DNA from: Promineifilum sp.
Lineage (GTDB): Bacteria > Chloroflexota > Anaerolineae > Promineifilales > Promineifilaceae
Assembly: GCA_019454405.1 (NCBI GenBank)
Contig: JACFOH010000004.1
Coordinates: forward strand, 27,565 to 91,564
Direction: 5' to 3'
Length of the DNA stretch: 64,000 bases
Notes under the pieces: generated by a model
What the model saw: only the letters and a program-made list of their open reading frames with translations
What the model was told of the DNA's origin: nothing
Database searches by the model: none
Made by a program: the position numbers and the translations under genes
In this document: piece by piece, positions 30,534-41,187 of the stretch
Layout: each line of letters starts with the position of its first letter
Numbering within the stretch: the stretch's first letter is position 1

Positions 30534-30552
30534 CAGAGTTCCGGCGCTTGTG

Positions 30553-30626
30553 CGCCCCCGGCAGGGCTCGAACCTGCAACATTCGGCTTAGAAGGCCGAC
30601 GCTCTGTCCTATTGAGCTACGGGGGC
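30553..30626 (-). tRNA. tRNA-Arg (anticodon UCU)
   Basis: 74 bases on the minus strand. The acceptor stem GCCCCCG pairs with CGGGGGC. The D-arm begins GCTC, the anticodon stem TCGGC/GCCGA holds loop CTTCTAA (anticodon TCT), and the T-arm is GCAGG-TTCGAGC-CCTGC. The discriminator base is G and the 3' CCA is not encoded. It reads AGA codons. Confidence 0.95.
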
Positions 30627-30765: not shown

Positions 30766-31221
30766 CTAATCGTCGTCAAACAACGGCCGGATGCCGTTGA
30801 AGATCGTCGGCCCACCGAAGGTTTTGACGATAAGATCGGGTTGCCTGTGGACCTGTTCGGCGATCTCGGTCGCCGTCAGCGGTTCGTTGCCGTTAGCCAA
30901 CAGGACGCTGAACACGGCATCCACCAGCGAACCCTGGGTCGCCATGTCGTTACCGTGCCGGCTGAAGTAGCTGCGCACGAGATATTGGAAGGCGTCGACC
31001 CGGCGTACCTCGCCGGTCTTGGAGTCAACCAGATCAATCTGGTCGGCAGCTATCTCCTGCCCAAGTTCGCTGCCCAGCGACAGGCGCGCCAACAGGTAGG
31101 TCTTTAGATCGAGATGGCTTTCATCCCACCAGGAGTAGTCGATATAAAATCGGGTGTCAGGCGTTACGCGGCGCAGGCTTGCCGCTTTAATCTGTGGCCG
31201 CGGATTTCTAGACAAAGACAA
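30766..31221 (-). CDS. unrecognised small protein with C-terminal winged-helix-like part
   Basis: 151 residues; I do not recognise the family. The N-terminal half (FYIDYSWWDESHLDLKTYLL) looks like a compact folded domain. The C-terminal half (residues about 90-145, SLVDAVFSVLLANGNEPLTATEIAEQV) reads like a winged helix-turn-helix. The frame has no early ATG. TTG at 31221 (AGGAG three bases upstream) or TTG at 31215 (nine bases) are the likely starts. It lies 23 bases after the larger unknown gene, so the two form one operon and probably one functional unit. Confidence 0.7.
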   Translation of the reverse strand: MSLSRNPRPQIKAASLRRVTPDTRFYIDYSWWDESHLDLKTYLLARLSLGSELGQEIAADQIDLVDSKTGEVRRVDAFQYLVRSYFSRHGNDMATQGSLVDAVFSVLLANGNEPLTATEIAEQVHRQPDLIVKTFGGPTIFNGIRPLFDDD

Positions 31222-31244
31222 TGTCTCCTCACCATCAATGGGCG

Positions 31245-32813
31245 CTAAGCCGCGCCTCCATATTGCCAGTAATGATCGCCAACAGACTTGAATGCGGGAT
31301 TGCGTACGAGTTCGGCGAAGATCGGTCCCGGCGGCAGTCGTCGCAACATATTAACCGCGCTGTAGAGCGTTTTGGCATGGACGGTATTCTGTGGCGTCAG
31401 GCCGGCCAATGACGGAAATACCTCGGTCAGTAATGCCGCTACCGACATTTTCATCGAGGAGGCCCGGCGCGCGTGTGCGTCGATGGCCGTCACAACATCC
31501 GTGCCGACGATCAGTAAATCGTCATAGCCACAGGGAACGGCGCGACGCATTAATTCAAACTGGATTCGGTTATCCTTCACAACGGCCAGTCGCACCCATT
31601 CGCGTTGCGGCCGCCGGCGATCAAAGCCTAGCATGACGATTCCCGGCTCGGGGCCGGGTTGCAGATGAATAAACCCTCCCACCGGGATCTGGTTGTCGCG
31701 GTACCATTGAGAAAGTCCATATACATAGCGCCCTTCAGCGACCACCCAGGCGGGGATTTCCTCATTGGTCTGGTCGTCGACCAACGTGATCCGCTGTCGC
31801 GGAGACCAACCAGGCTTAAATAAGGCGCGAGTCCTGGAATTAATGGGCAACGTTCCGGCCCAGCGATGCGGATAGGACAAGGCCAGCATAACCGGTACAG
31901 CCACCTCAATCGGAGGGTTGTCGGACCACTCGTCATCCAGTTCCTGTTCCAACAAAATCTGCTGTGGGGTCAGCGCACTGCGATCATAGGAAACCGGCTG
32001 ATACACGAGCCGCTCCGGAATCGTCTGAACGCCATCCGGTTCCATACGATGCAGGAACCAGGTCGACGGCCCGTGCGACGAAACCTCATCAAAGCGGCCG
32101 TCGAGTTGCATCTGCTGCGTCAGCGAGAACGCCTGCACGTCAGGGTCGATATCAGAATCCAGTTCCAACTGCGGCAGGATTTGGGCCGTTGTCAGTGGGC
32201 CGCCTTTGGCCACCTCCAGAATGGCTTCAGTCAGATGCAGATGGCCGATATTGATGTCGGCCAGGAGCGGCTTCACGAACCAACGCTCGCCAACATGAAT
32301 GAAATCCTCTCGTTTTTCCAGAGATGCGTCGATCTTTTTCGCGACGGCATCGCCATAGGCCGCCTGAATGTTCTGAGCGTCGCCAACCATCTGGGCGGTC
32401 AACTCTCCAGTATCACTGATGTTCAGCGGGTGCGATTGTTTGAAGTTGGCTGCGAATTCACGGGATTTCCCCTTGATCGCGACGCTAATCACGCTGAACT
32501 CGCCGTAGTCAGGATTGAAACCCTCGCGCACGCCGGTCACTTTGCCCTGGGCCAGCTTCAGCGCCGGGAAAACCAATTCCTCACCCACCTCGTATGCTCT
32601 CTCGGGCTGATAGACAGTACGACCGGCCATGACGCGGCGTAGCTCGTTCTCCCGTTCCCGCACCCGAAGTTGAATGATCAATTCAGCCAATTTGGCCGAA
32701 CTTTGGGGCTTTCCTGTATCAAGAAAATAGTTGTAGATTTGCTCAAGGTCAGAATCGGAGAGCGAGAATTGGGATTCCCAATACTCCGCCGCCTGGATTT
32801 GAGTCTGATTCAC
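31245..32813 (-). CDS. unrecognised ~522-residue protein with HARE-type winged-helix-like segment
   Basis: I cannot name the family. N-terminal helical part (about 1-60), then a beta-rich stretch (GEELVFPALKLAQGKVTGVR, about 75-120). A helix-rich region follows, with GGPLTTAQILPQLELDSDID (about 210-260) resembling a HARE/RpoE-delta-type winged helix. The middle part is rich in Trp, Pro and Arg (HRWAGTLP, ARVLGW-like spacing absent), and the C-terminal 90 residues are helical and contain VAALLTEVFPSLAGLTPQNT. No signal peptide, membrane helix or nuclease motif is seen. GTG at 32813 with AGGAG six bases upstream is the best start; TTG 32816 is adjacent. It is co-transcribed with the small gene downstream and divergent from gntR. 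Confidence 0.7.
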   Translation of the reverse strand: MNQTQIQAAEYWESQFSLSDSDLEQIYNYFLDTGKPQSSAKLAELIIQLRVRERENELRRVMAGRTVYQPERAYEVGEELVFPALKLAQGKVTGVREGFNPDYGEFSVISVAIKGKSREFAANFKQSHPLNISDTGELTAQMVGDAQNIQAAYGDAVAKKIDASLEKREDFIHVGERWFVKPLLADINIGHLHLTEAILEVAKGGPLTTAQILPQLELDSDIDPDVQAFSLTQQMQLDGRFDEVSSHGPSTWFLHRMEPDGVQTIPERLVYQPVSYDRSALTPQQILLEQELDDEWSDNPPIEVAVPVMLALSYPHRWAGTLPINSRTRALFKPGWSPRQRITLVDDQTNEEIPAWVVAEGRYVYGLSQWYRDNQIPVGGFIHLQPGPEPGIVMLGFDRRRPQREWVRLAVVKDNRIQFELMRRAVPCGYDDLLIVGTDVVTAIDAHARRASSMKMSVAALLTEVFPSLAGLTPQNTVHAKTLYSAVNMLRRLPPGPIFAELVRNPAFKSVGDHYWQYGGAA

Positions 32814-32902
32814 CAATTGCTCCTATACCGGGGCTACGCCTGCCGGGGATCATTAAGACTTGTTAATTGTACCAACCTGGGGGGCATGTAGCAATCTTAC
32901 GC

Positions 32903-32986: not shown

Positions 32987-33727
32987 ATGCTCCGGCGCGC
33001 GCCTTCCCTAACCGATCAGGTTAAAGCCCATATCAAGGACCTTATCGTCCAAGGGCAGTTCGCCGATAGCCGCGTCCCCCCCGAGATGGAATTAGCTGAA
33101 CTGTTGGGAGTCAGCCGCACCACCGTCCGAGAGGCCCTTAGCCGGCTGGAGATGGAAGGAACCATCAGTCGCCGGCAAGGCTCCGGTACGTTCGTCAACG
33201 ACCCCGTGCTACAAATTCGCTCGCGGCTGGATGAGATCTGGTCTTATGAAGCGGTGCTCCGGGCTCACGGCTTCACACCCTCCACGCGCGTCCTGGAAGC
33301 ATACGCATTGACCGTCGGAGATGAAGGGCTACCGAAAAACATCATCAACGAACTATCGCTGGCCGCCGACGAACAGGTTCTGTTCACCAGCAAGCTCTTC
33401 CTGGAAGACGACGTACCGGTCATCCTGGCCCATAATTACCTGCCGATGCGTCTGCTGGCAGAACCTTATACGGCCGAAGACCTGGAGCGGCCAGTATACG
33501 ATTTCCTGGAGATGTTCAGTCACCGGCGATTGGCCTACTACTTATCCGAGATCATGCCGATCGCAGCTGATAGCGAACTGGCCGAGGCCCTGCTAATCGC
33601 GCCCGGCACTCCCCTGATCGCCTTCGATGAAATCGGCTATGATGATGACAATGTGCCTATCCTGAAGGCCATGTCCTATTTCCGTGACGACCTCCTTCGT
33701 TTCCGCATTCTTCGTCGTCGAGTTTGA
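32987..33727 (+). CDS. GntR-family regulator with UTRA effector domain
   Basis: 246 residues. The N-terminal GntR winged helix (about 5-70) has VPPEMELAELLGVSRTTVREALSRLE and RRQGSGTFV. The C-terminal UTRA/HutC-type ligand-binding domain (about 85-240) has RVLEAYALTV and the closing GTPLIAFDEIGYDDDNVPI. It heads the operon of four catabolic enzymes that follows, and most likely represses it until the substrate or a breakdown product binds. A short hairpin follows the stop. No clear ribosome site is seen before ATG 32987. Confidence 0.93.
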   Translation: MLRRAPSLTDQVKAHIKDLIVQGQFADSRVPPEMELAELLGVSRTTVREALSRLEMEGTISRRQGSGTFVNDPVLQIRSRLDEIWSYEAVLRAHGFTPSTRVLEAYALTVGDEGLPKNIINELSLAADEQVLFTSKLFLEDDVPVILAHNYLPMRLLAEPYTAEDLERPVYDFLEMFSHRRLAYYLSEIMPIAADSELAEALLIAPGTPLIAFDEIGYDDDNVPILKAMSYFRDDLLRFRILRRRV

Positions 33728-39183: not shown

Positions 39184-41187
39184 CTAGGGCCTATCGAAAA
39201 GTCGAATAGTGAAGATATCGTCATCGAGCGTCTGGCCACCCGCGCGGGCCGCCAATCGAGCGCCATCGGTCGTTTGATAGACACCGATAGCCGCCCGATA
39301 TGAACCATTCGGGAGGGACGATAGATCGATCCGGTGCTCATCAGCCAAGATATCCAGCGGCTGCCAGAGGCGCTCCGGCACAAGCCCAAATCCCGGCGGC
39401 CCGTCGCTTTGTGCCACCAGAACGCCCGCAGCATCATAAACATGGACGAAGACAGCCAGCGGTATTTCTCCAGCCTGATCGACGCGCCATCGCGGCTTGA
39501 CGACGAGTTCATCAGCCTCGACATCCGACCAGATGTCATAGAGGGACAACCGGTCGCCAAACGTCGCCAGCGGCGCCCCAAACATGGCCGAACCAGGTTG
39601 CCATACAGCCGACAGGTCGTCGAAAGAACCACGCATCAAATCGAATACATAGGTTGCCTCACCAGCCGCAAGGCCTCGTAAAATACGGCCGTCGATCTCC
39701 GGGCCAAAAGTTCGCCAGCCGGGACCATAACCGGCATAGGTGACTCCCACGACATCGCGGTCCGGTCCTCCGTTAAAGCGCACAAAATCCCGTGCCTGGG
39801 CATAGGGGGGAATGAGGACGGCCCCCACCGGCGTCCACGGATAGGGCGACGGACAGCCGCCGGGTCGGGCAGCGGTAGAGCTGAAGAAGAACGGCGCGTT
39901 GACGAACACCACCCCGCGCTCCGCCGGGGCATCGCCTGCGGCATGAGCCATCCCGCGCGCGAATCGGCTCGCCTCATCGTAAAAGTCAAGCTGGCAACGG
40001 ATGAAGGGCCACGGCGGCAGAGCAAGAGCGAGGAGAAACAGCCCCCCCACCAACCCGGCGATGACAAGGCGAAGGCGACGCCCCAAGCTATGCGACTCAC
40101 CCTCATGAACGCCAGGCACGCCGGAAGAAACCCATCGTCCGAGCCACAAAACAGGCAACGCCCATAGCATCGCCATGCCGACGGACGGCAGATAGCCCAG
40201 GCGCGGGCTGCCGTAGACGTAGGCCGGGCCGAGGAAGAGCAACGCCGGCACGATCGACAGCACAAACCACATCAGCGCATAGGCCCACATGCGCAGCGTC
40301 CTCATTCGCCATGCCAGCAAGCCCGTCATCGCCATCATGGCCACCACCGCCAGCGCTAACCAGACGGTGTCGCTCGACTCGAGCCGGAGCGCAGGCAACA
40401 AGGGATAGATGAGCGTCTGGAGGAACGGGGCGGTATTGCGGGCAATATCAGTCAGACTGTTCAATCCCTGGTCGCTGTTCTTGGGAATGGCCAGCCAGAG
40501 GACGACAAATAACAGCGGCGGCACGGCAAACGGCCATAGTCTGCGTGCCCTCTCGCTGACGGGTGAATGCGGTCGCATCATCCAGTCAACGCCCACCAAC
40601 GCGGGCAAGATAAAGAGACCGTTCTCATGGGTCAATAATCCCAGGATCAGGGCGAGCATGGCGGCGACCCGGCGGCCGTCCATAAACGACAACAACGCCA
40701 CCAGCAACCAGAACAGCAGCAACGGATGAGTCAGCGAGGCGACGTAGGCTACGGCCTCATAATTAAAGGGCACGCTCGCGAAGATAAGCGCCGTGGCCCA
40801 GGCAAAAGCTGCGCTGTCACTTAGTCGTCGAGCCAATAACCAGGTCAGCGCGACATTTCCTCCGTGGAGCAGCCAGAGCAGCGCGTGATCGGCCACCGGA
40901 TTATGGGGAAAGATCGCATTGCCAAAGAGAATTTCGGACAAGCGCAAGACAGCGAAGACAATAGGGCGATAGTAGCCGTACTCGGCCGAACTAGTAAAGA
41001 ATTGCAGCAGGGATCGACCTTCCATCCAGGCGAAATGACCGGTAGGGTCGTCATTGAAGTAGGCGAAGCCCAATGCACGGCGATAGAGCCACATCGCCAC
41101 CAGGGCTACAGCCAGCGCCTGGATATAACGAAGAATATTGGCCCGTGCTCGGTGGTCGTCGGTGGTGCGAGTGCTATCGGAATACAT
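39184..41187 (-). CDS. large membrane protein, GT-C glycosyltransferase-like
   Basis: 667 residues. About eleven hydrophobic helices fill residues 20-405, and the first extracytoplasmic loop has YFNDDPTGHFAW, an acidic DD motif at the place where GT-C enzymes carry theirs. The last 260 residues are soluble and beta-rich (LAVFVHVYDAAGVLVAQSDG, LPNGSYRAAIGVYQTTDGARL), like the C-terminal sugar-binding-type domains of such proteins. It probably transfers a sugar from a polyprenyl carrier at the outer membrane face. No partner genes are adjacent, so the acceptor is unknown. Confidence 0.7.
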   Translation of the reverse strand: MYSDSTRTTDDHRARANILRYIQALAVALVAMWLYRRALGFAYFNDDPTGHFAWMEGRSLLQFFTSSAEYGYYRPIVFAVLRLSEILFGNAIFPHNPVADHALLWLLHGGNVALTWLLARRLSDSAAFAWATALIFASVPFNYEAVAYVASLTHPLLLFWLLVALLSFMDGRRVAAMLALILGLLTHENGLFILPALVGVDWMMRPHSPVSERARRLWPFAVPPLLFVVLWLAIPKNSDQGLNSLTDIARNTAPFLQTLIYPLLPALRLESSDTVWLALAVVAMMAMTGLLAWRMRTLRMWAYALMWFVLSIVPALLFLGPAYVYGSPRLGYLPSVGMAMLWALPVLWLGRWVSSGVPGVHEGESHSLGRRLRLVIAGLVGGLFLLALALPPWPFIRCQLDFYDEASRFARGMAHAAGDAPAERGVVFVNAPFFFSSTAARPGGCPSPYPWTPVGAVLIPPYAQARDFVRFNGGPDRDVVGVTYAGYGPGWRTFGPEIDGRILRGLAAGEATYVFDLMRGSFDDLSAVWQPGSAMFGAPLATFGDRLSLYDIWSDVEADELVVKPRWRVDQAGEIPLAVFVHVYDAAGVLVAQSDGPPGFGLVPERLWQPLDILADEHRIDLSSLPNGSYRAAIGVYQTTDGARLAARAGGQTLDDDIFTIRLFDRP

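Follow-up and report, generated by a model that had tools for sequence, protein, structure and literature searches.

Results

Two adjacent genes behind a conserved promoter

The window, by which we mean the whole 64,000-nucleotide stretch of Promineifilum sp. DNA analysed here, holds two adjacent minus-strand genes, flanked by a tRNA-Arg gene (TCT; 30552-30626) and by a GntR/UTRA regulator gene (32987-33727) that is divergent from the pair. An earlier interpretation of the locus, referred to below as the sequence-only reading, had placed the pair between a tRNA gene and a GntR-regulated operon and had noted the non-ATG starts; both open reading frames were confirmed and both neighbours were found. 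The large frame can be read as 31245-32816 from a TTG or as 31245-32813 from a GTG, a choice that had been left open. Alignment with five genus-level relatives shows that the GTG at 32813, the NQTQ stretch after it and the upstream AGGAG are all kept, whereas the relatives do not share the in-frame TTG one codon before the GTG, at 32816, which supports the GTG as the start. The small gene has two in-frame TTG codons, of which only the one at 31215, and not that at 31221, is invariant in the six relatives compared. As it also has an AGGAG nine bases upstream, the small protein is probably 149 residues long and not 151 as initially given; the 23-base gap quoted between the genes is correct for the TTG at 31221. 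Homologues of the pair down to ~30% identity occur in dozens of genomes, with an open frame and in the same order, which argues that both genes are real.

The promoter was compared across one class of Chloroflexota (Anaerolineae and allies), hereafter the class. Upstream of 62 class members the words ATTATA and GTATAA are found in 51 and 40 loci, respectively, against an expectation of ~4-6, and a -35/-10 pair agreeing with the consensus at 9 or more of 12 positions is present in 48 of the 62 loci, as compared with 19% of shuffles. The listed sites mostly have an extended -10 (TGGTATAAT) and mostly lie 35-75 nt from the start. In the window the elements are TTGCTA-17-TACAAT with an extended TGG, and the promoter of the pair reads as one of the ordinary housekeeping sigma factor type. 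Apart from promoter elements and the Shine-Dalgarno sequence, which account for the enriched words, the region upstream of the operon shows no distinct operator.

Table 1. Features of the gene pair, in window coordinates.
Feature	Position	Strand	Description
Promoter	32866..32894	minus	-35 TTGCTA, 17-bp spacer, extended -10 TGGTACAAT; conserved across the class
Large-gene Shine-Dalgarno	32820..32824	minus	AGGAG; invariant in six genomes
Large gene	31245..32813	minus	522 aa, GTG start; from ORFs, alignment of relatives and AlphaFold
SH3/Tudor-like beta barrel	32439..32615	minus	Large protein, residues 67-125; from predicted secondary structure only
Winged helix 1	32040..32258	minus	Large protein, residues 186-258; most conserved domain, acidic (median pI 4.4)
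B3-like DNA-binding pseudobarrel (predicted)	31611..31904	minus	Large protein, residues 304-401; PHxRAGTLPLS arm and GLxxWY motif conserved; median pI 9.8
Winged helix 2	31257..31493	minus	Large protein, residues ~441-519; Stn1 C-terminal winged helix match
Small-gene Shine-Dalgarno	31225..31229	minus	AGGAG; invariant in six genomes; 9 nt upstream of TTG 31215
Small gene	30766..31215	minus	149 aa, start at the conserved TTG 31215
N-terminal module, zinc-ribbon-derived	30964..31152	minus	Small protein, residues 24-86
Winged helix of the small protein	30778..30936	minus	Small protein, residues 96-148 counted from TTG 31221

Elsewhere in the window, a 667-aa frame (39184-41187, minus strand) with many hydrophobic segments has no Pfam match at E 0.01; by eye it is a membrane protein of glycosyltransferase-like layout.

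The pair is a core operon of the class

Among 301 genomes drawn evenly from the phylum, 38 belong to the same class; 37 of these have the large gene, and the same 37 have the small one. In a second draw, of closer relatives, the large gene was present in 56 of 59 genomes (49 of the 52 class genomes beyond the first draw), so that both draws together, with the overlap removed, give 86 of 90 class genomes, in single copy; the window's own genome likewise has one copy. Four class genomes lack the large gene even by profile search. In one of these (G312) the small gene begins at the contig end, the cut passing through the pair, and the absence is thus an assembly break; the other three lack the small gene as well. 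Named relatives are Promineifilum, Ardenticatenia, and Anaerolineales and Anaerolineae bacteria, and a contig scan with short peptide patterns returned only records of Chloroflexota type.

In every locus examined the large gene is immediately followed, on its own strand, by the small one, and the count of neighbours across Chloroflexota that had been proposed for the pair gives 37 of 37 class genomes. The spacing ranges from a 4-bp overlap, seen in many loci and typical of coupled translation, to a gap of ~160 bp. The flanking genes beyond the pair vary among loci, from which it follows that the pair is a unit of its own. In the gene trees, clades f2 and f3 are recovered for both genes and f1 in the small-gene tree too, while f5 is recovered in neither; the mirror-tree distances of the two genes correlate with r 0.72, a correlation expected for any two vertically inherited genes. 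No match to the pair was obtained in plasmids (72,556), phage records (50,697) or viral contigs, the last scanned with single proteins as queries.

The existence and the distribution of the pair are firm: it is conserved class-wide and is a vertically inherited core operon. A lack of conservation, which the sequence-only reading had named as its refutation, was looked for and not seen. The sequence-only reading had named the pair as a candidate for an undescribed system, a word that in its accessory or defence sense finds no support here. Anti-phage defence and a mobile element were rejected as explanations, given the near-universal presence, the lack of a PADLOC model and the failure to find matches in plasmids, phages and viral contigs.

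Neither protein belongs to a named family

No Pfam, NCBIfam or PADLOC model exceeds its cut-off for either protein and no meaningful PHROG match was found, in keeping with the earlier statement that the two match no nameable family. The nearest approach is a sub-threshold HARE-HTH match of the window's small protein (E 0.023; 15.5 bits against a cut-off of 25.9). Among the relatives the best E-values of this model (PF05066) are 0.0054 in the small family and 0.011 in the large one, and since every member of both families stays below the cut-off, membership was rejected. The Pfam B3 and EcoRII-N models remained unmatched among 63 large-family members at E up to 1, a sequence search of solved structures with all three family profiles gave nothing significant, and hhalign (4.9%) gives no support for a shared origin of the small and large families. 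A description of either family was not found in open-access text. We conclude that the two are conserved core genes, apparently undescribed, and that one of them has a predicted B3 DNA-binding domain, as set out below.

A second, different HARE-like protein is encoded by the window's genome, outside the window (G000:C29, L137, 1751-4327, minus strand). This 858-aa frame has two tandem sub-threshold HARE-HTH matches and, by eye, a segment resembling sigma-factor region 4 (LPERERDIIEKRFG...TRERVRQ).

A predicted B3-type domain in the large protein

The large protein was modelled by AlphaFold with 63 relatives (pLDDT 93.5), and the four modules listed in Table 1 were delimited. The N-terminal region is beta-rich, as pointed out before. 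The Foldseek E-values of the model are weak, the best being 0.014 for LlaJI.R1, followed by plant B3 domains. When residues ~305-401 were realigned, the first 23 rows were all B3-fold proteins, from plants and from restriction enzymes: VAL1, FUS3 and ARF5 at Z 11.5, LlaJI.R1 at 9.7, BfiI at 8.2, NgoAVII at 7.6 and EcoRII-N at 6.9. By the tool's own guide, models without a clear match typically reach a best score of Z 7-8, a level that the top value exceeds. A search of a viral structure library with the same model gave no match at E 0.001.

With the plant B3 domains (VAL1, FUS3, LEC2, ARF1/ARF5) the model shares the pseudobarrel over 93-97 residues (rmsd 2.1-2.8, Z 10.4-11.5), and a similar role as a sequence reader may be shared too. 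In contrast, the identity is only ~7-16%, no Pfam B3 match exists, and the large protein is bacterial, combines the domain with two winged helices and an SH3-like barrel, and is part of a two-gene operon. The B3-like domains of BfiI, R.NgoAVII/R.CglI, EcoRII and LlaJI.R1 are of the same fold (Z 6.9-9.7) and are bacterial as well; the bacterial B3 domains with solved structures that we found are restriction-enzyme parts (BfiI, EcoRII, NgoAVII, LlaJI; PMC4267653, PMC4081073), and the BfiI domain has been noted to resemble plant factors (PMC4081073). The isolated B3 domain of CglI/NgoAVII binds its target site on its own, as a monomer (PMC4267653). Unlike these enzymes, the pair has no nuclease, helicase or methyltransferase, either in the protein or as a recurring neighbour, and it consists of core genes rather than a mobile accessory system. 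No nuclease family matches the large protein and the modelled domains leave no room for one, which places it outside the BfiI, NgoAVII/CglI, EcoRII and LlaJI enzyme families. The large protein is thus predicted to carry a B3-type DNA-binding domain without a nuclease. The sequence-only reading, which had seen no nuclease or ATPase motif and had thought a nucleic-acid-associated role plausible, is borne out to that extent.

Winged helix 1 has the topology and the acidic character of HARE-HTH and the RpoE delta subunit (residues 186-258, Z ~7), so that the HARE/RpoE-delta-type resemblance noted earlier holds at the level of the fold only. It is not specific, however, as Z-alpha, forkhead and MarR winged helices are equally similar and no member reaches the HARE-HTH cut-off. 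The delta subunit, moreover, is not known to have a B3 domain. Winged helix 2 aligns over residues 457-519 with the C-terminal winged helix of Stn1 (Z 7.1). Prediction and fold search of the proteins taken singly recovered the winged helices that had been suspected by eye, and added the B3-like domain (304-401) and winged helix 2, which had been missed.

The B3 domain is basic, most other segments of the large protein being acidic: the family medians fall to pI 4.2 in the linker after winged helix 1, and reach 8.4 in winged helix 2 (see Table 1 for the others). This charge pattern suggests that the C-terminal half contacts DNA and the N-terminal half contacts proteins.

The small protein and its zinc-type motif

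The model of the small protein (pLDDT 85.9) consists of an N-terminal alpha/beta module followed by the C-terminal winged helix that had been anticipated; its fold matches are weak and generic. The N-terminal module had been overlooked, and it is here that relatives of the small protein bear a zinc-type motif, Cx2C/H...(H/C)C. Its two key cysteine columns are filled in 18 of 18 relatives from outside the class and in ~40 of 56 class members; the motif is lost throughout the window's own family and otherwise in few class members only, which suggests a relaxed or changed role of the small protein in that family. Class members have a basic winged helix (median pI 10.1), solo relatives an acidic one.

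A zinc-type motif combined with a winged helix (Z 4.7) recalls archaeal TFE-alpha. The Z-value is in the background range and there is no sequence link, and TFE-alpha has its modules in the reverse order, winged helix first and zinc ribbon second. The tandem winged-helix proteins of the ScpB/KITE type are weak fold matches of both the large and the small model. Replacement of ScpB by the small protein was rejected, as true ScpA and ScpB are encoded in the same genomes, both exceeding their cut-offs in 19 of the 20 that were tested.

The two families part outside the class

The large-family profile detects homologues in 39 further genomes outside the class (best-domain E 1e-12 to 1e-27). These proteins, of 540-730 aa, match only residues ~140-510 of the large family; over 366 columns the class and out-of-class profiles align with 99.85% probability. 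Their N-terminal region is different, and the SH3-like half and the small gene are both absent. The small-family profile in turn detects 36 further out-of-class genomes, none with a large partner. The two sets do not overlap in a single genome, and the small protein can accordingly work alone outside the class.

The SH3-like barrel was not found outside the pair-carrying class. Conversely, two class lineages (L073, L074) keep only the N-terminal half of the large protein (~250 aa), beside the small gene. The N-terminal half is thus never seen without the small gene, and binding between it and the small protein is suggested; these isolated halves, and out-of-class carriers with neither of the two, link one to the other. 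A further locus (L109) encodes a full-length large protein with a C-terminal half that, by eye, is of the out-of-class kind. The possibility that the N-terminal winged helix of out-of-class large proteins is a fused small protein (a Rosetta-stone arrangement) was unsupported (hhalign 0.3%). Outside the class the B3-like domain is acidic (pI 5.0) and may not bind DNA there, so that binding is perhaps not a property of the whole superfamily.

In 12 of the 16 loci from outside the class, the large homologue is directly followed by a gene for a HEAT-repeat protein of ~310 aa (L053, L114-L116, L118, L119, L121, L123-L126, L128), after which, in several of them, comes what by eye is a PIG-L-like deacetylase gene. 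The two form a second undescribed conserved pair. Solo small genes are downstream of yebC, often as yebC-ruvC-ruvA, in 9 of 19 loci (one group among L054-L072); in several loci another group lies between signal-peptidase-like and macro-domain genes. In a different lineage, a 2031-aa sacsin/DUF3684-like protein (L127, 3401-9496, minus strand) includes a B3-like and winged-helix segment that matches large-family residues 300-522 (E 3e-9). This is a case of domain transfer into a giant protein, possibly a chaperone- or defence-like one.

Discussion

We propose, with a probability of roughly 0.55, that the two genes form a housekeeping operon whose products make up a DNA-binding complex of the chromosome, acting as a regulator or as a nucleoid/architectural factor. 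It is from fold, charge and genomics that we infer this function, including the physical complex, the DNA sequence specificity and the regulatory output; the operon, its promoter and its near-universal occurrence, together with the folds as predicted and the distribution of charge, are results of the analysis. In the large protein, the B3-type domain and probably winged helix 2 too would recognize specific double-stranded DNA, while the acidic N-terminal half, formed by the SH3-like barrel and winged helix 1, would serve for protein docking and hold the small protein, whose basic winged helix would provide a second DNA contact. Given that no catalytic domain is present, the effect of the complex would come from its occupancy of DNA, whether it regulates transcription globally or serves as a nucleoid/architectural factor; a B3-type DNA-binding fold being predicted and the cutting part being absent, the large protein probably controls or organizes the chromosome. 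It should be borne in mind, however, that both winged helices and B3 folds can also mediate contacts between proteins. More tentatively, the near-universal non-nuclease B3 protein could be a general transcription or nucleoid factor of the whole class, with lineage-specific partners, namely the zinc/winged-helix protein and, elsewhere in the phylum, the HEAT-repeat protein.

An association with RNA polymerase, in the manner of the delta subunit of Bacillota, would have the acidic winged helix 1 and its linker bind the polymerase while the B3 domain tethers the assembly to DNA. We consider this improbable. Winged helix 1 does align with delta, including that of the B. subtilis RNAP-HelD complex, at Z 7.1-7.2 and 19-20% identity, the succession of an acidic winged helix and an acidic linker is that expected, and a core gene behind a housekeeping promoter would fit. 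Nevertheless, the match is as unspecific as described above, the HARE-HTH model fails in every member and no RNA polymerase gene recurs among the neighbours of the pair.

More doubtful still is a role as an accessory of chromosome structure or repair, linked to condensin or recombination, for which the winged-helix and HEAT-repeat partners would be interchangeable scaffolds. The recurrent HEAT-repeat gene, the ScpB matches of both models and the place of the solo small genes behind yebC are consistent with it, but the ScpB matches are no better than those to other winged helices, ScpB itself is retained beside the small protein, and yebC-ruv is a generic neighbourhood.

We give little credence to an RNA-binding or translation-linked pair, in which the winged helices and the SH3-like barrel would bind RNA in place of DNA. 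The winged helices of SelB, RPC39 and Egalitarian are among the fold matches, and YebC, the gene of which adjoins solo small genes, is reported to act on translation; the dominant match is nevertheless the B3 fold, and characterized B3 domains bind double-stranded DNA (PMC4267653). Least likely of all, a DNA sensor for defence or modification, derived from a restriction system minus its nuclease, would account for the restriction-enzyme origin of the solved bacterial B3 domains and for the distant relative of the C-terminal half fused into the sacsin/DUF3684-like giant, but not for a near-universal, single-copy, vertically inherited pair that was not found on plasmids, phages or viral contigs, has no PADLOC match and shows no recurring nuclease, methyltransferase or helicase neighbour.

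The pair matters first for the organisms themselves. Members of the Chloroflexota abound in sediments, sludge and the ocean and are poorly amenable to experiment, and a core pair carried by nearly all genomes of one class offers a defined entry point to a part of their chromosome biology that is still missing. Because the two families separate in complementary fashion outside the class, nature has also set up an experiment on the part played by each partner. Known instances of the B3 fold in bacteria are for the most part recognition domains of restriction enzymes, and a housekeeping B3 protein that is inherited vertically and has no nuclease would be informative about the origin of the fold and the rise of the plant B3 transcription factors. 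If the large protein is indeed a general factor of the whole class, Chloroflexota would possess a component of core chromosome machinery not described before, and the B3 fold would have a place in bacteria outside defence.
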